NCBI RefSeq assembly: GCF_016651105.1
Contig: NZ_JAEKEL010000001.1
Location: forward strand, 1,509,501-1,573,500
Reading direction: 5' to 3'
Length of the DNA stretch: 64,000 nt
Origin: Pseudomonas sp. TH15
Lineage (GTDB): Bacteria > Pseudomonadota > Gammaproteobacteria > Pseudomonadales > Pseudomonadaceae
Part shown: positions 19,738 through 39,100 of the stretch, in pieces
How positions within the stretch are numbered: position 1 is the first letter of the stretch
Layout of the letters: each line of letters starts with the position of its first letter
Translations under genes and position numbers: made by a program
Notes under the pieces: generated by a model
Seen by the model: the letters and a program-made list of their open reading frames with translations, nothing else
What the model was told of the DNA's origin: nothing
Databases searched by the model: none

Positions 19738-19832
19738 GGTCATCTCCTTGACGGTGAAAGAGAAGCGCGTATACAGGCGATGTGCTGAGGCCTGCATCAG
19801 CGAGTGTAGACGCCGTCCAAACGCTACACCTT

Positions 19833-20542: not shown

Positions 20543-21769
20543 TTACGACCAGCGGCGAAAGATCAGCGAGGTGTTGACGCCGCCGAAGGCGAAGTTGTTG
20601 TTCATTACGTACTGGTTGCTCATCTGCCGGAACTCGCCGCGCAGGTAGTCGAGCTTGCCGCAGTGCGGGTCGACCTCGTCGAGGTTGAAAGTGTGCACGT
20701 ACAGGTCGCGGTTCATCATTTCGATGCTGAACCAGGATTCCAGCGCACCGCAGGCCCCGAGGGTGTGGCCGAGGAAGCTTTTCTGCGAGCTGATCGGCAT
20801 GTGCTCGCCGAACAACGAACTGGTTGCCTGTGTTTCGGCGATGTCGCCCTGTTCGGTCGCGGTGCCGTGACCGTTTACGTAGCCGATGTCCGACGGCTGC
20901 AAACCGGCGTCTTCCAGGGCCAGTTCCATGGCGCGGCGCATGGTCGCTTGCTCTGGACGGGTGGTGTGCTGGCCGTCGGCGTTGCTGCCGAAACCGACGA
21001 GTTCGGCATGGATGTGTGCGCCACGGGCCAAAGCGTGTTCGAGTTCTTCGAGCACCAACATGCCGCCGCCTTCACCGATCACCAGGCCGTCACGGTCCTT
21101 GTCGTACGGCCGTGGGCTGGTTTGCGGCGCGTCGTTTTTCAGGCTGGTGGCGTAGAGCGCGTCGAAGACCATCGCTTCGGTCGGGCACAGTTCTTCGGCG
21201 CCGCCGGCCAGCATCAGCGGCAAGCGGCCGAACTTGATCGACTCGTAGGCGTAGCCAATGCCCTGGCTGCCGCTGGTGCAGGCGCTGGACGTCGGGATCA
21301 ACCGGCCGGTGAGGCCGAAGAAGATGCTGATATTCGCTGCTGTGGTGTGCGGCATCATCCGCACGTAGGAGTTGGCGTTCAGGCCTTCGGCTACGGAGTT
21401 GAGCAGCATGTTGCCGAACGCTTTTATCTCGTCGGTGCTGCCGGTGGACGAACCACAGGCGACGCCCATGCGCCCGTCCTTGATCGATTCATCGCCCAAC
21501 AGCCCCGCGTCGGCCAACGCTTGCTCAGCAGCACCCACAGCGAGCCGCGAGACGCGACCCATGCTGCGCAGTTGCTTGCGGGTCCAGTGGCTCGGGACTT
21601 TGAAGTCATCGATCGGCCCGGCGAGACGGGTGTTGAGTTCAGTGAAGCGGTCCCACTCGTCCATCCGGCGAATGCCGCTGCGGTTGGCCTTGAAGTTGGC
21701 GGCGATGGTCTCCCAATCGCTGCCCAGTGAGGTGATGCCGGCCATGCCGGTGACGACGACGCGCTTCAT
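20543..21769 (-). CDS. apeR: Beta-ketoacyl-ACP synthase of the aryl polyene pathway (ApeR type)
   Basis: A FabF-like ketosynthase of 408 residues. The catalytic triad is visible: Cys in TSSACTSGSQG, His in NGHGTATEQGD and His in SFLGHTLGACG, with a C-terminal NNFAFGGVNTS. In characterised APE systems a second KS (ApeR) acts alongside the ApeO/ApeC pair, probably in early chain building. It is the last gene of the minus-strand cluster. The ATG at 21769 overlaps the ketoreductase stop (TGATG), so GTG at 21775 is not used. Letter assignment follows the O-P-Q-R gene order of the E. coli cluster. Confidence 0.85.
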   Translation of the reverse strand: MKRVVVTGMAGITSLGSDWETIAANFKANRSGIRRMDEWDRFTELNTRLAGPIDDFKVPSHWTRKQLRSMGRVSRLAVGAAEQALADAGLLGDESIKDGRMGVACGSSTGSTDEIKAFGNMLLNSVAEGLNANSYVRMMPHTTAANISIFFGLTGRLIPTSSACTSGSQGIGYAYESIKFGRLPLMLAGGAEELCPTEAMVFDALYATSLKNDAPQTSPRPYDKDRDGLVIGEGGGMLVLEELEHALARGAHIHAELVGFGSNADGQHTTRPEQATMRRAMELALEDAGLQPSDIGYVNGHGTATEQGDIAETQATSSLFGEHMPISSQKSFLGHTLGACGALESWFSIEMMNRDLYVHTFNLDEVDPHCGKLDYLRGEFRQMSNQYVMNNNFAFGGVNTSLIFRRWS

Positions 21770-22497
21770 CAGCACAGGCCTCCGTTGACGGCCAGAACCT
21801 GCCGGGTGATGTACGAGGCTTCCGCCGACATCAGGAAATTCACCGCACCGGCCACCTCTTCAGGTGTGCCCATGCGTTGTGCGGGGATCATTTTCATCAG
21901 TTCTTCCACCGGCACGTTTTCGTCGAGCATGGCGGTGTCGATCAGGCCGGGTGCGACACAGTTAACGGTGATTTTGCGCTTGCCCAGTTCGATCGCCAAC
22001 GCTTTCGCCGCACCGATCAAACCCGCCTTGGAGGCGCTGTAGTTGACCTGGCCACGGTTGCCGATCAACCCGGAAACCGAGGTGATGCAAACAATTCGCC
22101 CGGCGGCGCGACGACGAATCATCGGCATCATCACCGGGTGCAGCACGTTGTAGAAACCGTCGAGGTTGGTGCGCATCACCACATCCCAATCATCCTCGCT
22201 CAGCGCCGGAAAAGCACCGTCGCGAGTCAACCCGGCGTTGAGCACCACGCCGTAATAGGCGCCGTGAGCTTCAACGTCAGCTTCGAGAATGGCTTTGCAA
22301 CTGGCGCGGTCAGACACATCAAATTGCAGCACGCGGGCGTTGCGGCCCAGCGCTTCGATTTCGGCCTTCACGGCCTCGGCCTCGGCCAGACCGCTGCGGC
22401 AATGCAGCACGATGTCGTGGCCAGCCTGGGCCAGACGCAGGGCGATAGCGCGGCCAATGCCACGGCTGGAGCCGGTGACCAGTACGAATTCAGTCAT
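21769..22497 (-). CDS. apeQ: 3-ketoacyl-ACP reductase of the aryl polyene pathway (ApeQ)
   Basis: A FabG-like short-chain dehydrogenase of 242 residues that would reduce the beta-keto group on the growing ACP-bound polyene with NADPH. Visible motifs are the cofactor loop TGSSRGIGRA, NAGLTRDG, the catalytic Ser in CITSVSG and YSASKAG (Tyr and Lys). The ATG overlaps the dehydratase stop. Context between ApeP and ApeR supports the role. Confidence 0.9.
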   Translation of the reverse strand: MTEFVLVTGSSRGIGRAIALRLAQAGHDIVLHCRSGLAEAEAVKAEIEALGRNARVLQFDVSDRASCKAILEADVEAHGAYYGVVLNAGLTRDGAFPALSEDDWDVVMRTNLDGFYNVLHPVMMPMIRRRAAGRIVCITSVSGLIGNRGQVNYSASKAGLIGAAKALAIELGKRKITVNCVAPGLIDTAMLDENVPVEELMKMIPAQRMGTPEEVAGAVNFLMSAEASYITRQVLAVNGGLC

Positions 22498-22955
22498 CAC
22501 TCGACTCCTTGGATTTCTTGAAGATATTGCGCCGCCTGGGGCGGGCGGTACACGTTGAGCCGGGCGGTGGCGTGGATGCCGGGGGCGTTGATGTGGCATT
22601 CGAATACTCCCATGCCGCTGTCGTCTTCCAGCGAGCGCAGCCCGTGGATGGTCAGCTCGGTGCCGGCAGGAAAGTGTTCGACGTTGCATTCGAATTTGCG
22701 GGTGCCGAGCAGGAAGCCCAGCTCCACCGCATCGCCGCGCGCACGGGCATGGCAACCGGCGTAAGCCGCCACACTTTGGGCCATCAGTTCGATGCCGACC
22801 CAGGCCGGCAGGCTGCCGTCGGGACGGTTGAACAGGCCATCGGGTTTGACGGTGAGGCGGGTGTGAATCTGCTCGTCATCGAACGACAGGATCTGCTCGA
22901 TGAGGATCATGTCGCCAGCGTGAGGCAGCAGTTCGGCGATCGGCCAGTCAATCAT
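22497..22955 (-). CDS. apeP: Aryl polyene dehydratase, hotdog fold (ApeP)
   Basis: A 152-residue single-hotdog protein that would dehydrate beta-hydroxyacyl-ACP to the trans-enoyl form, keeping the double bonds conjugated. It opens MIDWPIAELLPHAGDMILIE with the likely catalytic His, and WVGIELMAQSVAAYAG holds the paired acidic residue. A longer reading exists, but the ATG at 22955 overlaps the apeO stop (ATGA) and matches family length. Confidence 0.87.
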   Translation of the reverse strand: MIDWPIAELLPHAGDMILIEQILSFDDEQIHTRLTVKPDGLFNRPDGSLPAWVGIELMAQSVAAYAGCHARARGDAVELGFLLGTRKFECNVEHFPAGTELTIHGLRSLEDDSGMGVFECHINAPGIHATARLNVYRPPQAAQYLQEIQGVE

Positions 22956-24148
22956 GGGGCGTCTCCGATAATCAGGCTGACGTTGTTGCCGCCGAAGGCA
23001 AACGAATTGCTCATCAGGTAGCGAGGTGCAATGGACGCCAGGCGAGTGGCCGGGGTCACCCAATTGAGCGCAGGCAGGTCGGGGGCGGGCTGGCCGTCCC
23101 AGACGTGGGGCGGCAGGGCGTGTTCGGGATTGTCGGCGCTCAGGCTCAACCAGCAGAATGCCGCTTCCAGGGCACCGGCGGCGCCGAGGGTGTGACCGGT
23201 CATCGGCTTGGTCGACGAGCACGGCACGCCGTCCGGAAACAACGCGGCCACGGCCAGGCTTTCCATGGCGTCGTTGTGTTGAGTGGCGGTGCCGTGCAGG
23301 TTCAGGTAACTGATTTGCGACGGTTGCAGCGCGGCACGGCTCAAGGCCTGGTACATCGCTTGCTGGGCGCCACGGCCGGTTGGTTCCGGTGCGGAAATGT
23401 GGTGCGCATCAGAGCTGGCGCCGCTGCCGAGCAGGGCAATCGAGGGGCCGTCGCCAGCACTTTTACTCATCAAAAACAGCACCGCCGCTTCGCCGATGTT
23501 GATGCCGTTACGGTTGGCGGAAAACGGGTTGCAGCGCTGCTCGGACACTGCTTCCAGAGCCGAGAAACCGTTGAGCGTCAGTTTGCACAAACTGTCGACA
23601 CCGCCACACAGCACAGCGTCGCACATGCCCAGATCGAGCAAGCGCTGGGCGCTCATCAAGGCTCGGGCGCTGGAAGTACAAGCGGTGGAAATCACATAGG
23701 CCGGGCCGCTCAATTGCAGCCAGTCGGCGAGGAAGTTTGCCGGCGCGCCGAGCTCCTGCTGCTGATAGTCGTATTCGGCGGGGAATTGCTGCTGGCGAAT
23801 GTAATGCGCCAGACCACGGCTGGCCTCGTCGATCCCCGACGTGCTGGTGCCCAATACCACACCGATGCGCTCGCGGCCGTAGGTCTGGATGGCTTGATCG
23901 ATGGCATCGCGAATCTGCAACGCGGCTTCGAGCAACAGCTGATTGTTGCGGCTGCTCTGATCGGCCAGTTCTGCCGGAATCGCCGCCAGATCACCGTGAA
24001 CCGCCGCGACTGGCAGTTCACGCTCCGGCACCCAGCCGGACTCGCGACGCATGCCCGAGCAGTCACCGGCAAACAGGTTGCGCGCAACGGTCGATTTGTC
24101 ACGGCCCAACGAACAGATCACGCCGAGAGCGTTCAGGTAAGCGGTCAT
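22952..24148 (-). CDS. apeO: Beta-ketoacyl-ACP synthase of the aryl polyene pathway (ApeO)
   Basis: A ketosynthase of 398 residues with active-site Cys in ISTACTSSARAL and His residues in NLHGTATQHND and TGHTLGAAGALEA. In the E. coli APE system ApeO forms the elongating heterodimer with the chain-length factor ApeC. Here the ApeC homologue lies at the opposite end of the same operon. The ATG overlaps the stop of the DUF3261 lipoprotein gene (ATGA). Confidence 0.87.
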   Translation of the reverse strand: MTAYLNALGVICSLGRDKSTVARNLFAGDCSGMRRESGWVPERELPVAAVHGDLAAIPAELADQSSRNNQLLLEAALQIRDAIDQAIQTYGRERIGVVLGTSTSGIDEASRGLAHYIRQQQFPAEYDYQQQELGAPANFLADWLQLSGPAYVISTACTSSARALMSAQRLLDLGMCDAVLCGGVDSLCKLTLNGFSALEAVSEQRCNPFSANRNGINIGEAAVLFLMSKSAGDGPSIALLGSGASSDAHHISAPEPTGRGAQQAMYQALSRAALQPSQISYLNLHGTATQHNDAMESLAVAALFPDGVPCSSTKPMTGHTLGAAGALEAAFCWLSLSADNPEHALPPHVWDGQPAPDLPALNWVTPATRLASIAPRYLMSNSFAFGGNNVSLIIGDAP

Positions 24149-24741
24149 GGCGTCGATTCACCCAACGGAGAAACGCGATAGTGCGGGCCTTGGGGCAGGT
24201 TCAATTCGAAGTGCAACGGTTGTGCATAACGGATGGCCCAACGCGGCGGCAGAGTTCGTTGCTCACCGTGTTGCTGCGCATCGGGATAATTGCGCAGCAG
24301 CTCGCCGGACGGGGTCAGGGCGAACAGCAGGGCCGCGAACAGCTCGCGGGCCTCGGGGTTCGGCGGCAGCAGGCCATCGGCTTGCCAATGACCGTCGATC
24401 AATTGCTGACGCGCCTGGGGGATGCCCAGCGGGTCCATCATCGACCAACGGATGCCCGTACCTTCGCGCTGGATCACCAAAAGCCAGTCCTGGCGTTGCT
24501 CGGCTTGCTGGCGCTCGATGTGCAGTTGCAGTGGCAGGGGCAGCGTCGGGTTGCCCGCTGGCAATGGCGCGTGGCTGGCGCAGGCACTTAACAGAAGTAA
24601 AATGCTCAGCACCAATAGCCGCCACACAGCGGACACTGTGGGAGCGAGCCTGCTCGCGAAGGCGCGGGCCCATTCAACAAAGAGGCTGGCTGGCCCACCG
24701 CTTTCGCGAGCAGGCTCGCTCCCAAAAGTCATGTGTCGCAT
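24145..24741 (-). CDS. apeN: DUF3261 lipoprotein (ApeN) with REPIN-encoded N-terminal extension
   Basis: An outer-membrane-type lipoprotein of the APE export set. The lipoprotein signal core WRLLVLSILLLLSAC (lipobox Cys54) starts only at residue 40. Residues about 7-35 are encoded by a REPIN (24637-24723). The ATG at 24741 overlaps the methyltransferase stop (TAATG) and has AAGGT about eight bases upstream. It therefore looks like the native start, with the repeat inserted in frame behind it. GTG codons at 24636 and 24627 would give a normal signal peptide but lack a ribosome site. Function inferred from cluster position. Confidence 0.75.
   Translation of the reverse strand: MRHMTFGSEPARESGGPASLFVEWARAFASRLAPTVSAVWRLLVLSILLLLSACASHAPLPAGNPTLPLPLQLHIERQQAEQRQDWLLVIQREGTGIRWSMMDPLGIPQARQQLIDGHWQADGLLPPNPEARELFAALLFALTPSGELLRNYPDAQQHGEQRTLPPRWAIRYAQPLHFELNLPQGPHYRVSPLGESTP
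24637..24723. repeat. REPIN inside the 5' end of apeN
   Basis: REP doublet of the GAGCGAGCCTGCTCGC subtype (one end has lost the terminal CACA). It lies between the apeN start codon and its signal peptide, within a polycistronic operon, and keeps the frame open. Confidence 0.88.
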
Positions 24742-25466
24742 TAACGATCACCTTCAAGAGGTTTGCGCGCCACGACATTGACCAGGGTTTCTTCCCGTTG
24801 GCCAAACGGCTTCGGCTTACGCAAACCAAAACGTTCAAACAGCCCGAAATCCTTTGCGCGGCTCCACCACAAGTACGGATAAGACACATTCTGCGGGCCG
24901 AATTCAAAACCCTGCTGGCGAATCATTTCCAGATACCCGGCTGCACTCTTCTGCACGTGCATCGGATGACGGAACAACCAGCGAATCACCCACGTATCAA
25001 TGTAAGCCTCGGTGGACTCGGCGAACAGCAGATAGCCGCCCGGCTTGAGCACGCGATAGAACTCGGCCAGGGCCAAGTCCTGCTCGACGAGGTGATGAAA
25101 GGTCTGGTGACAGAACAGCAGGTCGACGCTGGCGTTGGCCACGTTGAGCGTCGCGCAGTCGCTGCCGATCAGCTCCACCGTCATGCCCTGACGCGCCGCC
25201 TCTTCACCGCTGAGGTGCAGGCTGTGCGGGTCGGCATCGACACCGATCAGGCGTTGCGGCGAAAAAGTCTGGCGCAGGTACTGGAACGACTTGCCCTGGC
25301 CGCAACCGGCATCCAGCAACACCGGGTTGCTGGGCAGCGAATCGCTGAACAGGTTGCGCAGGTCGTTGATTGCCACCCGCAGCACATGGTGCTGCCAGGT
25401 GTGGCTGCGCAGGAACCAGAAACCGAATTTGGTTTCTTCGACGTAGTTGTCGCTCAGGTAACTCAT
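24741..25466 (-). CDS. SAM-dependent methyltransferase of the aryl polyene cluster
   Basis: A class I methyltransferase of 241 residues. The SAM-binding motif I is VLLDAGCGQGKSFQYL, followed by an acidic loop GVDAD and motif FYRVLKPGGYLLFAES. APE head groups often carry methyl groups on the aromatic ring, so ring methylation is the likely job (inference). It overlaps the upstream flavoprotein gene by four bases (ATGA) and the downstream apeN start by one codon. Confidence 0.83.
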   Translation of the reverse strand: MSYLSDNYVEETKFGFWFLRSHTWQHHVLRVAINDLRNLFSDSLPSNPVLLDAGCGQGKSFQYLRQTFSPQRLIGVDADPHSLHLSGEEAARQGMTVELIGSDCATLNVANASVDLLFCHQTFHHLVEQDLALAEFYRVLKPGGYLLFAESTEAYIDTWVIRWLFRHPMHVQKSAAGYLEMIRQQGFEFGPQNVSYPYLWWSRAKDFGLFERFGLRKPKPFGQREETLVNVVARKPLEGDR

Positions 25467-26710
25467 GTCGCATCCCTTGCACAGATTTCCGAAATCACCT
25501 TCAACCGACGCTTCGCTTCGCTGACGAACGGATTGCGCTCATCCCAGGCGTAACCGGCGAGGATCGAGGCGATCATCCGGCGGATGTCCGGTGAGCTGCC
25601 ATCATGGAAAATCACGTCCTGGAAGGTCCCGGCGTACCAGCCTTCGACGTAGCAGCGGAAGGTGTCGACGCCACGTTTGAGCGGGGCGGCGAACTCGGTC
25701 TGCCAGTCGACGCTTTCACCCTGCAATTGGCGATGCAATACGCCGGCGGCCATGCTCGCCGAGCGCATCGCGATGGTCACACCAGAGGAGAACACCGGGT
25801 CGAGGAATTCCGCCGCGTTGCCCAGCAGCGCAAAGCCCGGGCCGTGCAGGGTTTTGACGTTGGCCGAGTAGCCGCCGATGGTCCGCGCCGGGGTGTCCCA
25901 CACCGCGTTGTTCAGCACACCGGCCAGGCTTGGGGTTTCGGCGATAAAGCCGCGCAGGCAGTCGTCCAGATTGTCGGTACGACCGTCGAAATGTTCGGCG
26001 GCGGCCACCACACCCACCGAGCACCGGCCGTTGCTGAACGGGATGGTCCAAAACCAGATGTCGCGATGGGTCGGATGGGTGGTGACGAGGATCTTGGTCC
26101 GGTCGAAGGCCGGGTTGTCGATCAGGTCCTCAACGTGGGTGAACACGGCTTGGCGCACCGGGAAATTCGACGGTGCTTCGAGGTCGAGCAGGCGCGGCAG
26201 CACGCGGCCGTAGCCGCTGGCGTCGAGCACGAAGTCGGCTTCGACGCGATACTCGCTGCCGTCCTCGCGCAGCACATTCAGCTGCGGTTTCGGCAGGTCG
26301 AAATCAGCGCTGACGATGGCTTCGCCGTAACGCAATTCCACACCTTGCAACGCTGCTTGATCGGCCAGCAACTTGTCGAAATCGGCGCGTTGCACCTGAA
26401 ACGTGGTCGGCTTGCCGTTGCTGAACGTGTCGCCGAAATCGAAGTCGCTGTACTGCTCGCCCCACGCGAACGCAGCGCCGGTTTTTATCTGAAAACCAGC
26501 GGCGTTCACCGCTTCAAGCATGCCGGCCTCTTCGACGAAATCGAGGCAATGGGACAACAGGCTTTCACCGATGGAAAACCTTGGAAAATGTTGGCGCTCG
26601 ATCACCAATACATCGTGACCCTTGCGCTTGAGCAGCGCGGCGGCGATGGCGCCCGAAGGGCCTGCGCCGATGACCACAACCTGACGACGTTCCATTTCAA
26701 CGGTTGGCAC
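25463..26710 (-). CDS. FAD-dependent oxidoreductase, flavin-halogenase-like
   Basis: A 415-residue flavoprotein of the geranylgeranyl reductase / halogenase superfamily. It has the FAD Rossmann motif GAGPSGAIAA (15-24), FPRFSIGESLL and a conserved Lys76 in KTGAAFAWGE. WFWTIP at 219-224 fits the WxWxIP motif used to recognise flavin-dependent halogenases. FALLGNAAEFLDPVFSSGV binds the FAD pyrophosphate. In the pathway it could oxidise, hydroxylate or halogenate the aryl head; which of these cannot be told from sequence. GTG at 26710 with GGAG five bases upstream is the start. It overlaps the antiporter-like gene by 14 bases. Confidence 0.8.
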   Translation of the reverse strand: MPTVEMERRQVVVIGAGPSGAIAAALLKRKGHDVLVIERQHFPRFSIGESLLSHCLDFVEEAGMLEAVNAAGFQIKTGAAFAWGEQYSDFDFGDTFSNGKPTTFQVQRADFDKLLADQAALQGVELRYGEAIVSADFDLPKPQLNVLREDGSEYRVEADFVLDASGYGRVLPRLLDLEAPSNFPVRQAVFTHVEDLIDNPAFDRTKILVTTHPTHRDIWFWTIPFSNGRCSVGVVAAAEHFDGRTDNLDDCLRGFIAETPSLAGVLNNAVWDTPARTIGGYSANVKTLHGPGFALLGNAAEFLDPVFSSGVTIAMRSASMAAGVLHRQLQGESVDWQTEFAAPLKRGVDTFRCYVEGWYAGTFQDVIFHDGSSPDIRRMIASILAGYAWDERNPFVSEAKRRLKVISEICARDAT

Positions 26711-27857
26711 GGGAGCTCCTTGCCGGGGCGGCGATATTCAGCGGGATTCGGTGCATGCCGGCCAGTGCCGGCAGCAATGTTGCGATCAGGCCCATCAACA
26801 TCAGCGCGAAGTACAGCGCCGGGCTGATGAGTTGTTGTTGCAGCAGCAGGTTGAGAAAGACGATCTCGCTCAAGCCGCGAATGTTCAGCAGCAGGCTTTC
26901 CCGCCAGCGGCTGGCGCCGTCAAACGAGGCGCCGGCCCAGCCCAGGCCGAGCCAGTTGCCCAGCAGTTTGCTGATGATCGGGAATAACAGCAGCGCGGTC
27001 AGTTGCAACCAGCCGAGGCTGGCCATGGCGCTGTGCACGTCGATCTGCACGATGCCGAACGTGAGAATCAGCGGGATGGCGATCCAGGTCTGCAAGCGAT
27101 TCATCCAGACCGCCGGCAACGGCAACACCAGCGGCACTTTGAGCACGGCCATGCACAGCAGATAGCCGATACCGAAAATCAGTGCGTTGAGCTTGAAATG
27201 CTCGGCCACCACCAGCAGCGCGAAGAAGCAGCCGCTGTGCAGCAGCGGTTGGCGCAAACCGAGCAGGCGCAACAGCAACGGCAGGCACGCGCCGGCCAGT
27301 GGCAGCAGCAAACTGCTCAGGTGCAGGCTGCCTTGGGCGAAGCCGAACAACGTCCAGCACGTGAGGTCGATGAGGATCGCGGTTTGCACCAAACGCCGGG
27401 TGGCGGCGGGCGGGTAGTTGATGTGTCGCAGGTACAGGTACAACACCGGGATCGCGGTGATGGCGAACACCAAACCGACCGCCAACGAGCTGATCCACGA
27501 TTGCGTCGGCAACAGCCAGACCGCTGTCGCCAGCCCGCAGGCGAAGGGCAGGCAGAAACTCGGCAGGGCGATTTTCAGGCTCTGGCGATCCAGCCGCAGG
27601 TCGATCACGTCGCTGAGGATGTGTCCCAGCAGCAAGGCGAAACTCAGGCTGTAGAGGTTTTTCAACCATACCGGCGAGATCAGATCGGCGCCGCTGAGCT
27701 GCCAGCCCGGCTCGATCCAGAAATACATCAACAGCGGCAAGCCAAACGTCGCCAGCAGCAATTGGCTGACAATCGGGATCAACCCGAAATGCCGGCCGAC
27801 GCGGGTCGCGACGGCGAACAGCCCCAGGGCCATCGCCCAAAACAGCACGATCATCAT
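26697..27857 (-). CDS. Cation:proton antiporter-like membrane protein in the aryl polyene cluster
   Basis: A 386-residue protein that is almost wholly hydrophobic, with about 11-12 membrane segments. Its organisation recalls the CPA2 Na+/H+ exchanger fold (RESLLLNIRGLSEIVFLNLL resembles the conserved RG(L)xE helix). The start ATG at 27857 overlaps the MMPL gene stop. A much longer upstream reading is an artefact inside the MMPL gene. A transport role in the APE context is inferred. It is not part of the minimal E. coli gene set as I know it. Confidence 0.65.
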   Translation of the reverse strand: MMIVLFWAMALGLFAVATRVGRHFGLIPIVSQLLLATFGLPLLMYFWIEPGWQLSGADLISPVWLKNLYSLSFALLLGHILSDVIDLRLDRQSLKIALPSFCLPFACGLATAVWLLPTQSWISSLAVGLVFAITAIPVLYLYLRHINYPPAATRRLVQTAILIDLTCWTLFGFAQGSLHLSSLLLPLAGACLPLLLRLLGLRQPLLHSGCFFALLVVAEHFKLNALIFGIGYLLCMAVLKVPLVLPLPAVWMNRLQTWIAIPLILTFGIVQIDVHSAMASLGWLQLTALLLFPIISKLLGNWLGLGWAGASFDGASRWRESLLLNIRGLSEIVFLNLLLQQQLISPALYFALMLMGLIATLLPALAGMHRIPLNIAAPARSSRANR

Positions 27858-30938: not shown

Positions 30939-31360
30939 GGCAGCATCCTTTCTACAGCGTCGGTGAACACTTTCGGCGAGGCCAATTGCATCTCACGGCT
31001 GCTCATGTCGACAGCGACCTGCACGGAAACGGCGCGGGTCAGGCGCTCACCGGTTTGCAGATCGCTGATCAGATAATTGATCTTCAGGCGGTTTTCCCAC
31101 TCCACCAGGCTGGCGCGCACGTTGATCTTCTGGCCGAACACCGCACCGCGCACATAGCGCAGTTGCAGGTCGATCACCGGCCAGGCAAAACCCGACTCGA
31201 CCATGGCGGTGTAGTTGTGGCCGAGCTTGTCCAGCAGCGCACACCGGGCGACTTCCAGGTATTTGACGTAATGGCCGTGCCAGACCACGTTCATGGTGTC
31301 GACGTCAAAGAACGGCACGAGGATTTCCGTATCGGCGTGAAGCACTCCCTTGCTACGCAT
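30935..31360 (-). CDS. apeK: Thioesterase of the aryl polyene pathway (ApeK), 4HBT hotdog family
   Basis: A 141-residue hotdog thioesterase. FFDVDTMNVVWHGHYVKYLEVAR carries the 4-hydroxybenzoyl-CoA thioesterase signature with the catalytic Asp. It would hydrolyse the finished or stalled polyene from its ACP (inference from the E. coli system). The ATG overlaps the end of the ammonia-lyase gene by eight bases, and the stop overlaps apeL. Confidence 0.87.
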   Translation of the reverse strand: MRSKGVLHADTEILVPFFDVDTMNVVWHGHYVKYLEVARCALLDKLGHNYTAMVESGFAWPVIDLQLRYVRGAVFGQKINVRASLVEWENRLKINYLISDLQTGERLTRAVSVQVAVDMSSREMQLASPKVFTDAVERMLP

Positions 31361-32897
31361 GCAGCCTCCAGTGTTGCTCGGCGATTCGTTTCAGGCACAG
31401 ACGCAATTCGCCTTCCAGGGCACGGTCTTCGATGACCGGCGGGAAGTCTTTGGCCAGCTCTTCGTGCATCGCGGCCAGGGACGGTGGCAGTGGCCGTGCG
31501 TCCTCAACCTGGCTGCGCAGCCAGACGCCTTGGTTGGCGGCCAGCAGGGTGGCGGCGGCGACTTGTTCGGTCAGCTCCAGCACACGGATCGCATCGCGGG
31601 CGGCGATGGTGCCCATGCTCACCTTGTCCTGGTTGTGGCACTCGGTGGAACGCGAGAACACGCTGGCCGGCATGGTGTTTTTCAGGGCTTCGGCGGTCCA
31701 GGCGCTGGTGCCGATCTGCACGGCTTTGAAGCCGTGGTTGAGCATGGCGCGGTCGGCAGTGGCGCCAGACAGGTTGCTCGGCAAACCGTGGTTGTAACGC
31801 TCGTCCACCAGCAGCGCGAGTTGCCGATCCAGCAAGTCAGCAACGTTGGCGACGAGGGTTTTCAGGCTGTCCATGGCGAACGCGATGTGGCCGCCGTAGA
31901 AGTGCCCGCCGTGCAGCACGCGTTCGGCTTCGGCGTCGATGATCGGGTTGTCATTGGCGCTGTTGAGCTCGATCTCGATGAACGAACGCAGCCAGTTCAG
32001 GCTATCGGCCAACACGCCGAGCACATGCGGGGCGCAACGCAGGGAGTAGCGGTCTTGCAGACGATGCAACGGCGCGGTCGGCGCGTCGATGGCCAGGTCT
32101 TTGCGCAGCCATGCGGCGACTTGCATCTGCCCCGGATGCGGCTTGGTAGCGAACAGGCGTTCGTCGAAATGCTCAGGATTGCCTTGCAGCGCCACCACGT
32201 TCAACGCGGTGATGCGCGTGGCCAGTTGCAGCAGGTAATCGGCGCGGGCGAAGGCCAGGCAAGCGATGCCGGTCATCACGGCGGTGCCGTTCATCAGTGC
32301 CAGGGCTTCTTTAGGCCGCAGCACCAGCGGCTGCCAACCGAGTTCGCGATGCACGTCGGCGGCTTCGCGACGTTCGCCACGGAACATCACTTCGCGCTCG
32401 CCGGACAATGTCGCGGCTACGTAGGACAGCGGCGTCAAATCACCGCTGGCGCCCACCGAGCCTTCTTCCGGGATCAGCGGCAGGATGTCGTGTTCCAGGA
32501 ACGCTTGCAGGCGTTCCAGCAGTTCCACGCGCACCCCGGACACGCCGTGGCACAGTGACTGCAAACGCGCCGCGAGTACTGCGCGGGTGGCCTGGGCGTC
32601 GAGCAGTTTGCCCAAGCCACAGCCGTGGAACGTGTACAGATGACGCGGCAGTGCTTCGACGTGATGCAGCGGCACCGCAACCACGCAGGAATCACCGTAA
32701 CCGGTGGTCACGCCGTAGATCACGCCTTCCTTGTCCAGCAGCGAATCCAGGAATCGCGCACCCTTGGCGATGCGCTCGCGATATTCAGGGTCGCCCTGCA
32801 ACTGCGTCGGCGCCTGACGGTTGGCCAGGGCCAGCACGTCTTCGATGCGCAAAGGGAGTTCGCCGAAGGTTACCGGCTCAAGCGTTGGCGTCGTCAT
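31353..32897 (-). CDS. Aromatic amino acid ammonia-lyase (HAL/PAL/TAL family) of the aryl polyene cluster
   Basis: A 514-residue MIO-cofactor lyase. The cofactor triad Ala150-Ser151-Gly152 lies in GSVGASGDLTPLSYVA, and the catalytic Tyr61 in YGVTTGYG. LNSANDNPIID and the C-terminal NQDKVSMGT segment are family-typical. The substrate-selectivity pair is Phe90-His91 (TFHGCGLG), unlike His-Leu of tyrosine lyases, Phe-Leu of plant phenylalanine lyases or Ser-His of histidine lyases. It probably supplies a cinnamate-type starter for the AMP ligase. ATG at 32897 has GGAAG close upstream and removes a 16-residue unsupported extension. It overlaps the acyltransferase gene. Confidence 0.87.
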   Translation of the reverse strand: MTTPTLEPVTFGELPLRIEDVLALANRQAPTQLQGDPEYRERIAKGARFLDSLLDKEGVIYGVTTGYGDSCVVAVPLHHVEALPRHLYTFHGCGLGKLLDAQATRAVLAARLQSLCHGVSGVRVELLERLQAFLEHDILPLIPEEGSVGASGDLTPLSYVAATLSGEREVMFRGERREAADVHRELGWQPLVLRPKEALALMNGTAVMTGIACLAFARADYLLQLATRITALNVVALQGNPEHFDERLFATKPHPGQMQVAAWLRKDLAIDAPTAPLHRLQDRYSLRCAPHVLGVLADSLNWLRSFIEIELNSANDNPIIDAEAERVLHGGHFYGGHIAFAMDSLKTLVANVADLLDRQLALLVDERYNHGLPSNLSGATADRAMLNHGFKAVQIGTSAWTAEALKNTMPASVFSRSTECHNQDKVSMGTIAARDAIRVLELTEQVAAATLLAANQGVWLRSQVEDARPLPPSLAAMHEELAKDFPPVIEDRALEGELRLCLKRIAEQHWRLHA

Positions 32898-33825
32898 CGG
32901 TCTTCCAGAAAGGGTAAAAGTTGAACCATTGTTGGGGCGCTTCAAGGCAATAGTGACCCAAGCGTTCGGCGTAGCGGGATGCCCACTGATGAATGACCTG
33001 TTCGCGGTCGCTGCGCTTCCACACCACGGCCTCGGCGAACGGTTCGAGGGTCAGTCGATAGTCGCCGGTCGGCTTCTTCAAACACAGCAACAGATTGACC
33101 TGACATTTGAGCAAACCGGCCAGCAGCCACGGACCTTGGGGGAACGCTGCCGGATGGCCGAGGAAATCCACAGTCACGCTGCGCCCGCCATGCAAGGGCA
33201 CACGGTCACCGGCAATCGCCAGCCACTCGCCGCGCTCCAGGCGTTCGTGCAGTTGCAGCATGATCACCGGGTTCAGTTCGCTGACCTGGATCAGCCGCAA
33301 ATTGGTCGCCCCGGCTTCGCCCAGCAAGCGGTTGAACTGCTCGGCGTGCTTGGTGTGCACCAGCACGTTCATCGTGACTTTTTCGCCGATCTCGGCCAGC
33401 GCGCGGCAGACCTCGAGATTGCCCAGGTGCGCGCCGACCAGCATCTGCCCACGGGCGCCGCGCAGCTGCGTGCGCAACAGCGCCGGGTCGATGATTTCGA
33501 TCTGCTCGATGCTCAGCTTGCCGTTCCAGACGTCGAGCTTGTCGAGCATCGAATCGGCGAAGGCCATGAACTGCCCGAAAACCCGCCAATGGGTCGGGCG
33601 CAATTCATTGCGGCCACTCCAGTCGGCGAGGCGTTGCTGGTATTGCCAGGCGCTTTTACGAGCGCTGCGGCCGAACAGGAAAAAGTACAAGACGATGCCG
33701 TACAGCAGCGGGCTCAACAGCCGCCGGCCCAGCACTTTGGCGCAGAGGGCGGTGAATTTCATCAGCCAGAAACTGCCGCGCTCCTCGCGGTCAGCCCAGT
33801 GCTTTTTGTCTGTCTCGGTGCTCAT
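32878..33825 (-). CDS. LpxL/HtrB-type lysophospholipid acyltransferase of the aryl polyene cluster
   Basis: A 315-residue acyltransferase with one N-terminal membrane segment (about 36-52) and an HX4E active site in GAHLGNLE. It resembles the lipid A late acyltransferases and corresponds to the C-terminal half of ApeJ, which in E. coli is fused to a glycosyltransferase. The start ATG at 33825 overlaps the glycosyltransferase stop (ATGA). A longer upstream reading is not real. It probably acylates the glycan or lipid anchor of the polyene. Confidence 0.83.
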   Translation of the reverse strand: MSTETDKKHWADREERGSFWLMKFTALCAKVLGRRLLSPLLYGIVLYFFLFGRSARKSAWQYQQRLADWSGRNELRPTHWRVFGQFMAFADSMLDKLDVWNGKLSIEQIEIIDPALLRTQLRGARGQMLVGAHLGNLEVCRALAEIGEKVTMNVLVHTKHAEQFNRLLGEAGATNLRLIQVSELNPVIMLQLHERLERGEWLAIAGDRVPLHGGRSVTVDFLGHPAAFPQGPWLLAGLLKCQVNLLLCLKKPTGDYRLTLEPFAEAVVWKRSDREQVIHQWASRYAERLGHYCLEAPQQWFNFYPFWKTDDDANA

Positions 33826-34556
33826 GCTCGCCACCGCCGCCAGAGGATGACCGGGGCTCGCAGCAACATGCCGAAGAACAACCGGGTGTGCATGCTCGAG
33901 ATCAGTACGTTGTCGCGGAATAGGCGAAAATGCGAGACGCCGTCCAGCGGGTAATGGACCTTGGTGTGCAGCCACTGCATCGGCAGGTTGCGCCAGGCCA
34001 GGCGCACCAGAATGTCCGAGTCGAAATCCATGCGTTTGCCGATCTTCGCTGAGTCGATCAACGCCAGGGTTGGCGGCAATGGATAGACGCGAAAACCGCA
34101 CATCGAATCGCGGATCTGCAACGACAACGTGTTGATCCAGACCATCACGTGGGTGAGGTAGCGCGCATACAAACGGCCCTTGGGCACGCTGGCGTCGTAG
34201 AGCGGATAACCGCAAATCACGGCTTCGGGATGGGCGCGGGACTGTTCGATAAAAACCGCGACGTCGGTGAGGTCATGCTGACCGTCGGCGTCCACCTGCA
34301 AGGCGTGGCTGAAACCCAGGCGCGAGGCTTCGCGAAAACCGGTCATGACGGCGGCGCCCTTGCCTTGATTGATGGTGAGGCGAATCAGGTAGGTGTGCTC
34401 ACGTTGTGCCAGTTGATCGAGCACTTTTGCACAGGCCGGGGTGCTCGCGTCGTCTACCAGGATGCACGGCAAACCTTGGGCGAGCAGTGCGTCGACCACC
34501 GTGGTGATGGCGGTTTCGTGGTTGTAGACCGGGATGATGGCGCAGGGGTTATGCAT
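33822..34556 (-). CDS. Family 2 glycosyltransferase of the aryl polyene cluster
   Basis: A 244-residue GT-A fold transferase with CAIIPVYNH at the N-terminus, LVDDAS, NQGKGAAVMTGF and the metal-binding VDADGQHD. It matches the N-terminal half of ApeJ and would add a sugar to the polyene lipid. ATG at 34556 (MHNPCAIIP) has GGAGG nine bases upstream and is preferred to an earlier in-frame ATG. The gene is separated from apeH by 173 bases that hold a REPIN, the only substantial gap in the operon. Confidence 0.83.
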   Translation of the reverse strand: MHNPCAIIPVYNHETAITTVVDALLAQGLPCILVDDASTPACAKVLDQLAQREHTYLIRLTINQGKGAAVMTGFREASRLGFSHALQVDADGQHDLTDVAVFIEQSRAHPEAVICGYPLYDASVPKGRLYARYLTHVMVWINTLSLQIRDSMCGFRVYPLPPTLALIDSAKIGKRMDFDSDILVRLAWRNLPMQWLHTKVHYPLDGVSHFRLFRDNVLISSMHTRLFFGMLLRAPVILWRRWRA

Positions 34557-34581
34557 GGCGAAGAGCCTCCGCCAATCCATT

Positions 34582-34692
34582 GTGGCGAGGGAGCTTGCTC
34601 CCGTCCGAGTGCGAAGCGCTCGTAATGAAATCTGCGGCGACTGGTTTTGGGTCTGCTACGCAGCCCAGCGGGAGCAAGCTCCCTCCCCACAG
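34582..34692. repeat. REP doublet between the apeH fusion gene and the glycosyltransferase gene
   Basis: An inverted pair of the GTGGCGAGGGAGCTTGCTCC subtype, about 110 bp. It fills most of the only sizeable intergenic gap inside the aryl polyene operon, where it could act on transcript stability or termination. Confidence 0.85.
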
Positions 34693-34729
34693 AGATCTCC
34701 ACTGCAACAGTGATTTCCATTGCCAAAGA

Positions 34730-36409
34730 TTAAGCATTCGCCGCCTCCAGCACGATCCGCCCGCTGGAGCAGGTGGCAGTGTCGTTGCGATAGGCGAAGT
34801 ACAACTTGCCGCGCACCGGGTCGAACCGCAGGTGCAGCTGGATTTCATCCCCTGGACGCACCAGTTGCTGGAATTTCAGCACTTCCATGCCGGCGAATCT
34901 AGTCGGCAAGTCCATCAACTGCTGACCCAGGCTCAAGGCCCAATCCACCTGCACCACGCCGGGCAATACCGGTGCCTGTGGAAAGTGGCCGCTGAAGTAG
35001 GCCAGGTCTGGCGGCACCGCCAGTTGCAGGCTCCACTCGCCGTCGGTTTCGACCTGTTCCAGCACCTCTGGCGCCTTCGGGCGTGGGGCCAGCAGCAGGG
35101 CTTCGACGTCGGCCTGGGGCAGTTTGCCTTGGGCGTTCAACGGCAACTGGCGCAGCAAACGCCAGCGCCGAGGCAAGGCGAGGGCTTCGCAATGTTGGCT
35201 CAGGTGCTGACGCAGTTCTTGAGTGAGGGTGCGCCGACCCTGATTGCGCAGGGCGTGCAGCCCTTGCTGACTGAGCACCAGCAACGCGCCCAGCGAGGCA
35301 CGGTTTTCCTGAACCACCCCGAGGCGCGCTTCGGCGACCCAGTCGTGGGCCATCAGCGCCTGTTCCAGCATCGGTAGCGAGATACGTTTTTCTTCCAGTT
35401 TGACGATCCGGTCCAGCCGTCCCAGCAGTTCGAAACGGCCGTCGGCAGCAATCCGCGCAGCGTCGGCGGTGTGTTCAATGTGGCCGGCCGGCAAGTAGGG
35501 CGAGGCGATGAGCAACGCGCCGTCGCTGTCCTGGCTCAACACGACGTCGGCGAACGGCTGCCAGAGGTTCTGGTCCTGACGCCAGGCAATACCGCCGGTT
35601 TCCGAGCTGCCGAGGATTTCCGTCGGCCATTGCTCCAGGCGTTCGAACAGGCTTTGCGCAGCCTCGGCGGGCAGGGCGCCGCCGGAGGAAAATACCCGGC
35701 GCACCGCGCTCAAGGCTGGCCAGTCGAGGTTATCGCCCATGCGTTTGAGCAGCGCCGGGCTGGCGACCCAGGCGAACGCCGAGTGTTCGCGGCTGGCGCG
35801 CTGCAAGTCTTCCGGGAAGGCCAGTTGCTTGCGCACGAACGGCCGCCCGGCGCACAGCGGCCAGAGCACCCGGAACAGCAAACCGTAGATGTGCTGGGTG
35901 GCGACACTGCCGATGATGCAGGCTTCGCCAAGATCGGCGCCCCACAGTTGCTCCAGCGCTTCGACCTCGTTGGCCAGTTGGCGCAGGGTCTTGTCGATGC
36001 GTTTCGGTTCGCCACTGGAGCCGGAAGTGCACAGACTCAGTTGGCACTGATCGAGATCCAGTTCGGCGCCGGGTAATGCCGGCTGAAGAAAGTCATGCAA
36101 GTGACGATCATCGCTGTGATCGGTCAGCCACAGATCGACTTCAGTCGACCAGCGCTGGCGAGTCTGGGCTTGCAGGTCGGCGGGCAGCAGCACGCTGACC
36201 CCGGCGCGCCAGGCGCCCAGCAGCGCAATCGCCAGGTCGGCGCCATCTTCGAGGTGCACGGCAATGCGCTGCACACCCTGGGCTTGCAGGCCGGCGGCGA
36301 GGCGCAGGGCCTGTTCGCACAATTGCGCGTGGTTCAGCGCCGGTTCGGCCGTCACGGCACGTTCCGGCTGAGCCTTGAGCAGCAGTTGCTCAAGTGTTAT
36401 CCAATTCAT
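34730..36409 (-). CDS. apeH: Aryl polyene AMP ligase fused to a hotdog dehydratase (ApeH-ApeI)
   Basis: A 559-residue fusion. Residues 1 to about 440 form an adenylate-forming ligase (ANL family) with [11 protein letters not shown] (about 127-137), SSETGG and [16 protein letters not shown]. It should activate the aryl acid and load an ACP. Residues about 455-559 form a FabA/FabZ-like hotdog domain with [19 protein letters not shown] (His475), which corresponds to separate ApeI in E. coli. ATG at 36409 overlaps the apeG stop (ATGA), so an 11-residue longer start is rejected. The fusion ties starter loading to dehydration in one polypeptide. Confidence 0.85.
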
Positions 36410-36951
36410 GGGTGGCCTCGTACCCGTTGTCGTATCAGCCATTCAATGGCAAACATCAGGCCGATCAATCCATAGGAGATCAGGCCGGTGTACAACATCC
36501 ACCAACTCAGCGGCGCCCAAAGGGTCAGCGCGGCGGCGCACAATCCGTTGCAGAGAAAAAACACACTCCAGGCCACGGTGACCTGGCGGGTGTAAACAAT
36601 TGCCTTGGCCGGCAGGTGCGGTTCACGCAGACGGGCCAGGCGTTCGGCCATCGGCGGGCCGTATTTCAGGCTCAGCCCGAATAGCGCCAACATGAAGCCG
36701 CTGATCAGCACCGGATACCAACGCAACAGCGCCGGGCTGTCGAACAGCGCTAGCAGCAGGCAAAACGCGATGGCGACGATGGCCATCCACAGGCTTCCGG
36801 GCCGCCGCACGCCGGTCAACGCGCGAGCCAGCCACAGGCTGCCCAGGAGCAGGCCGAACTGCCACGGGGCGAAATGCTCCATGCCGAAATACACCGCAAA
36901 GGGGTACAGCAGGCCCGCCAGCAGCAGGCCGAGGCCGATCAATCGGCTCAT
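36406..36951 (-). CDS. apeG: Small multi-helix membrane protein of the aryl polyene cluster (ApeG, COG4648 type)
   Basis: A 181-residue protein with about five or six membrane segments (for example LIGLGLLLAGLLYPFAVYFG and WSVFFLCNGLCAAALTLWA). It belongs to the uncharacterised membrane protein family always found next to the APE AMP ligase. Its biochemical role is unknown. Starts and stops overlap neighbours on both sides (ATGA), so it is co-translated with apeF and apeH. Confidence 0.78.
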   Translation of the reverse strand: MSRLIGLGLLLAGLLYPFAVYFGMEHFAPWQFGLLLGSLWLARALTGVRRPGSLWMAIVAIAFCLLLALFDSPALLRWYPVLISGFMLALFGLSLKYGPPMAERLARLREPHLPAKAIVYTRQVTVAWSVFFLCNGLCAAALTLWAPLSWWMLYTGLISYGLIGLMFAIEWLIRQRVRGHP

Positions 36952-37202
36952 GCGGCCGGTTGAACCAGACGGTAGACCGCCTCGACCACGTCGCTGACGG
37001 TACGCACCGTTTTGAATTCTTCGGCGGCGATTTTCTTGCCGGTCTGGCGCTTGATGTGATCGATCAGGTCGACCGCGTCGATGCTGTCGATTTCCAGGTC
37101 CTGGTACAGGTTGGATTCCAGGCTGACGCGCTCGGGGTCCAGCTCGAAGAGTTCGACCAGCGCATCGCGCAGGGTGTTGAAGATGTCGTCACGAGTTTGC
37201 AT
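36948..37202 (-). CDS. apeF: Acyl carrier protein (ApeF)
   Basis: An 84-residue acidic ACP. The phosphopantetheine Ser is in LEIDSIDAVDLI. It lies nine bases after the first ACP gene. In APE systems one ACP usually carries the starter and the other the growing chain; which is which here cannot be told. Confidence 0.9.
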   Translation of the reverse strand: MQTRDDIFNTLRDALVELFELDPERVSLESNLYQDLEIDSIDAVDLIDHIKRQTGKKIAAEEFKTVRTVSDVVEAVYRLVQPAA

Positions 37203-37211
37203 GGTCCGGTC

Positions 37212-37472
37212 TCAAGCTGCCTGTTTTGCAGTGACGAACGCCGCAAGGCTCGCCACATTGGAGAAGTGGTTACGGGTGTCTTTGGCGTCGGCATCGATCT
37301 TGATGCCGTACTTTTTCTGAATCGCCAGGCCGAGTTCCAGGGCGTCGACCGAGTCCAGGCCCAGGCCTTCGCCGAACAGGGTCTGGTCGTCGCCGATGTC
37401 GTCGACGCTGATGTCTTCGAGGCCCAGGGCGTCGATGATCAGCGTTTTAATTTCACGGTGTAGATCGCTCAT
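37212..37472 (-). CDS. apeE: Acyl carrier protein (ApeE)
   Basis: An 86-residue ACP with the phosphopantetheine Ser in LGLDSVDALELGLAI. It overlaps the acyltransferase gene by 20 bases. It is one of two distinct ACPs in the cluster. Confidence 0.9.
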   Translation of the reverse strand: MSDLHREIKTLIIDALGLEDISVDDIGDDQTLFGEGLGLDSVDALELGLAIQKKYGIKIDADAKDTRNHFSNVASLAAFVTAKQAA

Positions 37473-38262
37473 CTTCGGCGAGCTCCTTAATAAAGTAATG
37501 GTGCAAATAGTCGTTGAGCTTGCGCGAGGCTTGTGGCGGAGGCCCCTGCTCGGAAAAGGTCTGTGGATCTATATCGGCCCCCACACGGAAACTGAAGTGC
37601 ACGCGGCGTTTTGGGATCCGATACCAGGGCTCGGCCTTGGTCAATGTGGTCGGGCTGACTTTGATGATCACGGGGGTGAGGATTTTCGCACCCCGCAGGG
37701 CAATGGCCGCAGCGCCCCGATGAAAGGCCGGCGGTTGGCCGGGTTGGGTGCGGGTGCCCTCGGGAAAAATGATCAAGGTCTGGCTGCTTTTCAGCGCGTC
37801 GGCCGCGGCGTCGAGCATGTCCATGCTGCCGTCGTTGCTGATGTATTCGGTGCGGCGCAACGGACCGCGGGTGAAGGGGTTCTCCCAGAGACTCTTTTTG
37901 ACCACGCAGTTGGCGTGCGGCACCAGACCAATCAAAAACACCACGTCGATCAGCGACGGGTGATTGGCGATGATCATTTGCCCCGGACGGCCGAGTTTTT
38001 CCGCGCCCTGAATGTCGTAGGTCAGCACGCCGCTGCGGGCCATGAACCGGACAAAAAACCAGAAGCAGCGACTGACGGTCTTTCGCGCCCGCAGCCGATG
38101 GGCCTGGGCATCGCCAGGCAGGCAGCCGAGCAGCGGGAAAACCAGCAACCGCAGGCACAGCCCGCCCAGCCCGAAAAGGGTAAAGCTCGCGGCGGTGGCC
38201 AGCAGGCGCCAGTAGTAGGCGTCGCGGTTTTTTTCAGTTACGGGTTGCGTTGCCAGGTCCAT
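37453..38262 (-). CDS. apeD: PlsC-type acyltransferase of the aryl polyene cluster (ApeD)
   Basis: A 269-residue 1-acylglycerol-3-phosphate acyltransferase-like protein. It has the HX4D motif NHPSLIDVVF, FPEGTRT and an N-terminal hydrophobic segment (about 20-45). It probably joins the polyene or a fatty acid to the lipid anchor. It overlaps apeC by 25 bases and apeE by 20 bases. Confidence 0.85.
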   Translation of the reverse strand: MDLATQPVTEKNRDAYYWRLLATAASFTLFGLGGLCLRLLVFPLLGCLPGDAQAHRLRARKTVSRCFWFFVRFMARSGVLTYDIQGAEKLGRPGQMIIANHPSLIDVVFLIGLVPHANCVVKKSLWENPFTRGPLRRTEYISNDGSMDMLDAAADALKSSQTLIIFPEGTRTQPGQPPAFHRGAAAIALRGAKILTPVIIKVSPTTLTKAEPWYRIPKRRVHFSFRVGADIDPQTFSEQGPPPQASRKLNDYLHHYFIKELAEDERSTP

Positions 38263-38957
38263 ACACGATTTTTCCAGGCATGTTGGCAGGTTGACTGCTG
38301 GCCGAGCAGGGTACGCAACAGATTCAAGGCATGGGGCCAGTGAGTTTTGGACAACTCGTCCGGGTTGCTGTTCAGGGACAGCTGCCAGTCATTGCCGGGT
38401 GTGACTAACAAACCGACCGCATAAGGGAACGGCACATCGTCGATCCAGGTCGAGTAGGCCTCGGGCGGCTGTTCTTCGGTTACCACCAGCAACACTGCGG
38501 GCGCGCCTTCCGAAAGCAGCGCCGCCGCCTCCAGCATGCCGTGCTCAAGGCCATCGCCAGCCGCGGCGAGCGCGGTCATTTCACTGGTTTCGCTGCGCAT
38601 GATCGACCACAGGCCAATGACCGCGTTGTGCACCGAAAGACTGAATTGAGTCGGCGATAGCGGCTGATCGGCCGCCAGATCACTGAGGATTTCGAAGGTG
38701 CGCGGGGTCTCGCCGTGACGGGAAATAAAGACCAACGGTAGGTCTTGCCGACCATCGGCCAACGGCCAGCCGACACTGAAGGCCATCCGCGCCAGGCGGC
38801 TGAGTCGCCGGCGCTGCATGGCCGGCAAAAACGACACGTCAGGGGCGGCATCGCTGCTCTGGAGCACGACCGGTTGTCGGCTCCAGGCCTGCCAATCGTC
38901 CACGCTTTCGAGCCCAGGGGCCCATGCGCGCCATTGGGCGATGTTGAAGTTGATCAC
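38238..38957 (-). CDS. apeC: Ketosynthase chain-length factor (ApeC)
   Basis: A 239-residue ketosynthase-like protein equivalent to the N-terminal half of a KS (FSLSVHNAVIGLWSIM is the family hallmark) and lacking the active-site Cys. It is the expected partner of ApeO that sets polyene length. It is the first gene of the operon and starts with GTG (MINFNIAQW). No ATG is in frame nearby. Confidence 0.85.
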   Translation of the reverse strand: MINFNIAQWRAWAPGLESVDDWQAWSRQPVVLQSSDAAPDVSFLPAMQRRRLSRLARMAFSVGWPLADGRQDLPLVFISRHGETPRTFEILSDLAADQPLSPTQFSLSVHNAVIGLWSIMRSETSEMTALAAAGDGLEHGMLEAAALLSEGAPAVLLVVTEEQPPEAYSTWIDDVPFPYAVGLLVTPGNDWQLSLNSNPDELSKTHWPHALNLLRTLLGQQSTCQHAWKNRVWTWQRNP

Positions 38958-39100
38958 AAAGATTCATCCCGCCCCTGCGGGCTTTCCTTGACGCGGCGGC
39001 TCGCACAATCTGCGGCCGACCTTACGTGGCGCTTAACGCCGAGTGGCGCGCATTATCCCGGTGCGGCGGGCGGGTAGCAAATGCTGGTTACATTTTGCAC

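Follow-up and report, generated by a model that had tools for sequence, protein, structure and literature searches.

An ammonia-lyase-bearing aryl polyene gene cluster beside a parA-like gene in Pseudomonas sp. TH15

Results

Gene content and organization of the cluster

A 64-kb stretch of the Pseudomonas sp. TH15 genome (contig NZ_JAEKEL010000001.1, positions 1,509,501 to 1,573,500; hereafter the window, whose own numbering is used throughout) contains 20 open reading frames (ORFs) that run in one direction on the minus strand, from position 38957 down to 20543. We are confident that these 20 genes constitute an aryl polyene (APE) cluster of the kind that carries an ammonia-lyase, which lies beside a parA-like gene in 11 of 11 lyase-bearing Pseudomonas regions, and whose predicted product is an outer-membrane aryl polyene lipid. 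With the start codons chosen here, adjacent genes share 1 to 37 bases at 17 of the 19 junctions; at the other two they are separated, by a 9-base gap (apeE–apeF) and a 149-base gap (between the apeH/apeI fusion and the following glycosyltransferase gene). The original prediction, made from the letters of the window, had described 20 genes on one strand, almost all overlapping, in an operon-like layout; the first of these statements was reproduced and the overlaps support the second.

The run begins with apeC (38238–38957), which encodes a chain length factor with a beta-ketoacyl synthase N-terminal domain (PF13723, 3e-80; 35% identity to Escherichia coli ApeC), followed by apeD (37453–38262), a lysophospholipid-type acyltransferase gene (PF01553, with a tblastn match in E. 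coli), and by the genes for two acyl carrier proteins (ACPs): apeE (37212–37472; PF00550; 53% identity to E. coli; Ser attachment motif GLDS) and apeF (36948–37202; PF00550, and NF003757 over its cut-off). The membrane protein gene apeG (36406–36951) is recognized by its likeness to E. coli ApeG (47% identity over 119 aa). A fusion of apeH and apeI (34730–36442) then encodes an AMP ligase joined to an ApeI-type dehydratase (PF00501 and PF22818), and the two halves of E. coli ApeJ correspond here to separate genes, the first to a GT2 glycosyltransferase (33822–34580; PF00535; 55%) and the second to an acyltransferase (32878–33825; PF03279; 35%). An aromatic amino acid ammonia-lyase with an Ala-Ser-Gly (4-methylideneimidazole-5-one, MIO) triad follows (31353–32897; PF00221, 2e-161), and after it come apeK, a thioesterase (30935–31360; PF13279; 47% to E. 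coli), apeL, a LolA-like carrier (30180–30938; PF03548), and apeM, an MMPL/RND-type exporter (27854–30196; PF03176; 30% to E. coli ApeM).

The remaining genes encode a 386-aa antiporter-like membrane protein (26697–27857), a flavin-dependent halogenase-type flavoprotein (25463–26710; PF04820), an S-adenosylmethionine-type methyltransferase (24741–25466; PF08241), a lipoprotein-like protein at the apeN position (24145–24741; hereafter the N protein), the ketosynthase ApeO, partner of ApeC (22952–24148; domain and tblastn matches; Cys motif STACTSS), the dehydratase ApeP (22497–22955; PF22817), the ketoreductase ApeQ (21769–22497; PF13561; 59% to E. coli) and the second ketosynthase, ApeR (20543–21769; NF006587 over its cut-off; 54% to E. 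coli). An alternative GTG start for apeR is possible at 21775. Pfam and NCBIfam together back 17 of the 20 assignments; when the 20 cluster proteins were searched, ApeG, the antiporter-like protein and the N protein had no Pfam match. The cluster therefore holds a ketosynthase–chain length factor pair with a second ketosynthase (ApeO, ApeC and ApeR), two ACPs, an AMP ligase, dehydratases of the ApeI and ApeP types and a ketoreductase, together with an attachment and export set composed of acyltransferases, GT2, LolA, MMPL and ApeG.

Comparison with APE clusters of other genera

The 20 window proteins were compared by tblastn (E 1e-3) with four regions, from E. coli, Pseudoalteromonas sp. THAF3, Acinetobacter baumannii and Burkholderia multivorans, the last of which carries no annotation. 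Within the one annotated E. coli ape region 15 of the 20 were matched in the same order, so that the E. coli cluster APE_Ec (apeA–apeR; the gene table, gene functions and export model are given in PMC8253772) resembles the window in the type and order of C, D, E, F, G, H, I, J, K, L, M, O, P, Q and R. The aryl polyene identity that had been proposed is backed by this and by the domain evidence, and the proposed likeness in gene order was found as well. The window cluster departs from this one by an H/I fusion, by the division of J between two genes and by the addition of the lyase, the antiporter-like protein, the flavoprotein and another methyltransferase. These four and the N protein, which is too diverged, are the five that tblastn did not match in the E. 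coli region. A tblastn search in the opposite direction, with the E. coli proteins from the apeA, apeB and apeN places, gave no match anywhere in the window (best E 0.71).

In the Pseudoalteromonas and Acinetobacter clusters 17 of the 20 proteins were matched, the misses being the antiporter-like protein, the methyltransferase and the N protein; in B. multivorans 18 were, and only the antiporter-like and N proteins were missed. All three clusters share with the window the core order and the place of the lyase, which is 61–62% identical to its counterparts there (53–55% for the flavoprotein), and all three differ from it in lacking a match to the antiporter-like gene. Among them the methyltransferase was matched only in B. 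multivorans, where, unlike in the window, it and the flavoprotein gene lie beyond apeR and point apart. The H/I protein is a single ORF in the window, Acinetobacter and Burkholderia, and two ORFs in E. coli and Pseudoalteromonas. For the A. baumannii APE cluster, ketosynthase structures are available (PMC8358021). The Acinetobacter record used, CP035931.1, is labelled a plasmid, yet genes typical of a chromosome, among them der, bamB and one for a histidine--tRNA ligase, adjoin the cluster.

The presence of the lyase and the flavoprotein in the clusters of other genera indicates that they mark a wider APE type and not this genome. We therefore rejected the suggestion of the original prediction that three added genes (lyase, antiporter-like and halogenase-like) define a distinct subtype; a fourth gene, for the methyltransferase, is equally unmatched in the E. 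coli region. Published work points the same way: two papers, one of them PMC5851621, count an ammonia lyase among the APE genes of Pseudomonas, the P. donghuensis cluster contains one (PMC5851621), and two papers use APE_Vf of Aliivibrio fischeri, which we group with the lyase-bearing clusters as it is cited in print, as the reference for Pseudomonas APE clusters. The arcuflavin loci of Azoarcus BH72 list a halogenase (arcA), a Na+/H+ antiporter (arcG) and a methyltransferase (arcM), and resemble the window in these listed names; they are unlike it in comprising two separate arc loci with a chorismatase and dialkylresorcinol genes (PMC3949708). The cluster is real, complete and conserved, and is of an already recognised kind.

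Occurrence in Pseudomonas and the optional antiporter-like gene

A relative of the lyase (E 1e-150 or better) was found in 236 of 298 Pseudomonas genomes. A subset of 40 genomes was composed of 20 lyase-free genomes (those listed, of 62) and 20 lyase-bearing genomes chosen from single-contig assemblies; ParA was present in all 40. Twenty ParA-adjacent regions, each about 20 kb long, were drawn from this subset, 11 lyase-bearing and nine lyase-free, the former deliberately including all four lyase-bearing genomes without the antiporter-like gene. In 11 of 11 lyase-bearing regions the cluster adjoins ParA with the lyase inside the gene run, and nine of nine lyase-free regions have no cluster. 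Close relatives of the marker gene occur in most of the genomes searched, which makes the cluster an ordinary one.

The antiporter-like gene was found in 16 of the 20 lyase-bearing genomes and in none of the 20 lyase-free genomes. In the four regions without it, this gene is missing from an otherwise present cluster, showing that it is not needed for cluster retention; it is optional in Pseudomonas APE clusters. Where present its place is constant: it lies between apeM and the flavoprotein gene in 80 of 80 named loci carrying it, a set that consists of the best 80 of 308 loci from a profile scan with the antiporter-like protein, all with Pseudomonas titles, and that does not reach distant genera.

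The antiporter-like protein has no match in Pfam or NCBIfam, and its close homologs are mostly named sodium:proton antiporter or hypothetical protein in the source records. An AlphaFold (AF2) model built from 18 sequences (mean predicted local distance difference test score, pLDDT, 82.3) was matched by Foldseek to NapA, NhaP and NhaA, the best being 5bz2 (E 2.3e-6, probability 1.00, template modelling score 0.64). The model thus predicts a cation/proton antiporter (CPA) fold, which agrees with the 'antiporter-like' label given earlier. One Asp, D164, is invariant in 18 sequences, is preceded by Ile or Met, and is a candidate for the ion-site Asp of the transport core. As a guess, the protein might help to balance ions or to power export. 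A defence-gene library gave no match to the antiporter-like and MMPL proteins.

The flavoprotein, the methyltransferase and the N protein

Among solved structures the flavoprotein is closest to 3nix, which bears the name Flavoprotein/dehydrogenase (375 bits); halogenases come next, CmlS among them with 151 bits. The catalytic-Lys pattern, WxWxIP and FxxPxxSxG (FLDPVFSSG) are present in 80 of the 80 Pseudomonas loci and the flavin adenine dinucleotide motif GxGxxG (GAGP[SA]GA) in 79; all four occur in 15 of 15 aligned sequences, which include those from Pseudoalteromonas, Acinetobacter and Burkholderia. We take these four to be motifs of flavin-dependent halogenases and, by them, predict that the flavoprotein is such an enzyme; the PF04820 match and the motifs both favour the earlier description of it as halogenase-like. 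That the motifs are nearly universal in the 80 loci bears on the possible presence of chlorine or bromine in a cell-bound pigment. No report of a halogenated aryl polyene was found in the literature searched, most subscription journals lying outside it.

The methyltransferase was matched in 65 of the 80 named loci. Two of the 15 misses are stretches that end at a contig end. Six misses were inspected, one of them a contig-end stretch; in the other five the flavoprotein and N matches lie about 40–90 bases apart, a spacing that implies that the methyltransferase gene is gone from those loci. Methylation of the head group, if that is the job of this enzyme, would therefore vary between clusters.

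The N proteins of the E. coli, Pseudoalteromonas and Acinetobacter clusters are annotated as DUF3261 and do match DUF3261, the family to which the original prediction had assigned the window protein as well. Pfam gave no support for that assignment: DUF3261 was not matched, and profile comparison and tblastn returned nothing or weak matches. The predicted fold of the N protein is LolB/LolA-like, judged among the matches listed, and we describe it as a predicted LolB-like protein.

Proposed pathway, starter unit and product

Gene content, gene order, orthology, motifs and the history of the locus are direct observations; from them we infer each chemical step, the starter, the halogenation and what the antiporter-like protein does. 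In the pathway that we propose, the lyase would deaminate tyrosine (or phenylalanine) to a cinnamate-type acid, and the ApeH half of the fusion would load this acid, or 4-hydroxybenzoate, onto an ACP. ApeO–ApeC, acting with ApeQ, ApeP and the ApeI half as a type II polyketide synthase, would extend the loaded starter with malonyl units into a conjugated polyene, the ring of which may be decorated by the flavoprotein and the methyltransferase. ApeD, the GT2 enzyme and the second acyltransferase would join the polyene to a lipid, and ApeM, ApeL and the LolB-like N protein would export the product to the outer membrane, where it is likely to be a yellow protective pigment. A broader proposal, that most Pseudomonas make a halogenated APE lipid from a cinnamate-type starter derived from an aromatic amino acid, and that many of them drive its export with a dedicated antiporter-fold protein alongside the MMPL exporter, seems to us unlikely as a whole.

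The lyase has an intact Ala-Ser-Gly triad in the window, in 14 of 14 aligned cluster-type homologs and in 78 of 78 named loci. It carries Asn-Gln-Asp where the host's own histidine lyase has Gln-Glu-Asp, of which the Glu presumably marks histidine lyases, and by this motif the cluster enzyme is unlikely to be a histidine lyase. Its selectivity pair is Phe-His (Tyr-His in Burkholderia), as read from alignments that did not contain RsTAL itself. Elsewhere in the same genome, a normal HutH (L001) lies beside a second HutH-like lyase (L002, G000:C1:1465771-1467144, outside the window) with a gap at the Ala-Ser-Gly position.

There are points against the proposed route. The position of RsTAL His89, where His is expected in a tyrosine ammonia-lyase, is occupied by Phe in the window, and in RsTAL the His89Phe change shifts preference to phenylalanine (PMC8773403 and PMC9002059). 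The starter might also be 4-hydroxybenzoate. Neither the active-site residues nor the ligase family decides between tyrosine and phenylalanine. FlxA, which resembles histidine lyases at the selectivity pair, is 1010-fold selective for tyrosine over phenylalanine, so this motif does not decide the substrate; in flexirubin synthesis it is the tyrosine ammonia-lyase that feeds 4-coumarate, a precedent for the route proposed here (PMC3992019). The best NCBIfam model for the window ligase is 4-coumarate--CoA ligase (98 bits against a cut-off of 334.7), with scores of 102 and 95 bits for two lyase-bearing relatives and 75 bits for E. coli ApeH; since E. coli ApeH shares this best model and all lie far below the cut-off, the ligase leans only weakly towards coumarate.

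We weighed alternatives for both the starter and the product. It is quite conceivable, though we hold it the less probable course, that this cluster, like that of E. coli, uses chorismate-derived 4-hydroxybenzoate to start the chain and that the lyase acts elsewhere, for example in a side pathway or in supplying cinnamate for a head group that carries no hydroxyl. The ligase model shared with E. coli ApeH and the Phe selectivity residue would fit this, whereas the position of the lyase inside the gene run in all 11 Pseudomonas regions, its recurrence in the Acinetobacter, Pseudoalteromonas and Burkholderia clusters, and an active-site motif that makes a histidine lyase unlikely all argue against it. 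As to the product, an ammonia-lyase is shared with flexirubin clusters, where it is of the tyrosine type (PMC3992019), and a halogenase with arcuflavin clusters, which would suit a flexirubin- or arcuflavin-like dialkylresorcinol ester in place of a simple APE lipid. The domains noted in the 20 genes, to which the search was confined, include none from a dialkylresorcinol-forming enzyme, and we consider such an ester highly improbable. The APE lipid, with a starter most plausibly delivered by the lyase, remains our preferred interpretation.

History of the locus

The original prediction had the cluster inserted into the core genome. As a description of the place this is upheld. In four of the nine cluster-free regions (L067, L068, L070 and L071) a LysR gene lies about 100–235 bases from ParA, and in a fifth, L073, it lies about 1.4 kb from ParA across a scar; the stretches of the remaining four do not include LysR. 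Beyond the opposite end of the cluster, LysR was seen in the window and in three of the 11 lyase-bearing stretches, the others ending earlier or giving no match. As an account of the event it did not hold for L073, since the scar there (positions 967–1260, G070:C4), between LysR and ParA, is a decayed apeC remnant. Its alignment to the start region of apeC spans 281 columns at 76.5%, and it keeps 44 of 239 ApeC residues at 80% together with the promoter-like site. The cluster has therefore been lost at least once, in G070.

How far a recent horizontal insertion into this lineage could account for the rest is best judged against the wider comparison. The existence of cluster-free genomes, with LysR close to ParA in the four regions named above, is what such an insertion would predict. 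On a ParA tree of 21 rows, cluster presence requires six state changes, of which the starred branches force at least four, and these could be obtained by repeated gain too. The tree is weak evidence, since it is built on one short protein and leaves 10 of its 18 inner branches open; cluster-bearing and cluster-free genomes are scattered over it and are no more clustered than shuffled labels, 150 of 500 shuffles being equally low. Set against insertion are the pairwise distances of nine cluster proteins, which track those of ParA (r 0.79–0.91; 12 taxa, eight for the antiporter-like protein; permutation p 0.001, the minimum from 999 shuffles), a GC content per 1-kb window of 0.59–0.66 inside the cluster and 0.54–0.65 outside, the lack of any tRNA gene in the 64-kb window (integrases were not searched for), and the 44-codon apeC scar of G070. 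A simple recent insertion is accordingly doubtful, and we would assign it a low probability.

Palindromes, the putative promoter and neighbouring genes

Repetitive extragenic palindromic (REP)-type sequences are frequent in the window, where 19 were found with three or fewer mismatches and 0.23 were expected. Pattern search placed one pair within the 5′ part of the N ORF (24641–24722) and another within that of apeL (30786–30888, about codons 17–51); a REP-like pair, one arm of which was found by pattern (three mismatches) and the other by eye, occupies the gap between the H/I fusion and the GT2 gene (34581–34690). The overlapping ATG codons of apeL and of the N gene open in frame into these palindromes, which would be read as N-terminal extensions of the two envelope proteins. 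In the relative L054, L and N each begin with an ordinary signal peptide, immediately behind the gene that precedes them. The apeL pair is absent from several relatives, L054 among them, and several others have insertions at the same junctions as the REP pairs of the window. Translational coupling at the apeL and N starts is for this reason uncertain, so the claim that the genes are coupled by their overlaps stands for the 17 overlapping junctions as a layout and is weakened at these two.

Upstream of apeC, on the minus strand at 39052–39080, lies the promoter-like site TTGCTA-17-GATAAT, one site being found where 0.2 were expected. A site of equal spacing is present 111–168 bases upstream of apeC in the window, in 11 of 11 cluster-bearing relatives and in the scar, although its −35 letters differ in L057, L062 and L063; we regard it as a putative apeC promoter.

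On the plus strand at 40849–41543 there is a short two-gene pair, the second member of which has a weak helix-turn-helix match below the cut-off; by its layout the pair looks like a HigBA-type toxin–antitoxin module. Directly downstream of apeR, on the minus strand, are two similar small proteins (19300–19740 and 20067–20513; 49% identity). Relatives of the one adjacent to apeR (20067–20513) occur in 14 of the 20 lyase-bearing genomes and in none of the 20 lyase-free genomes.

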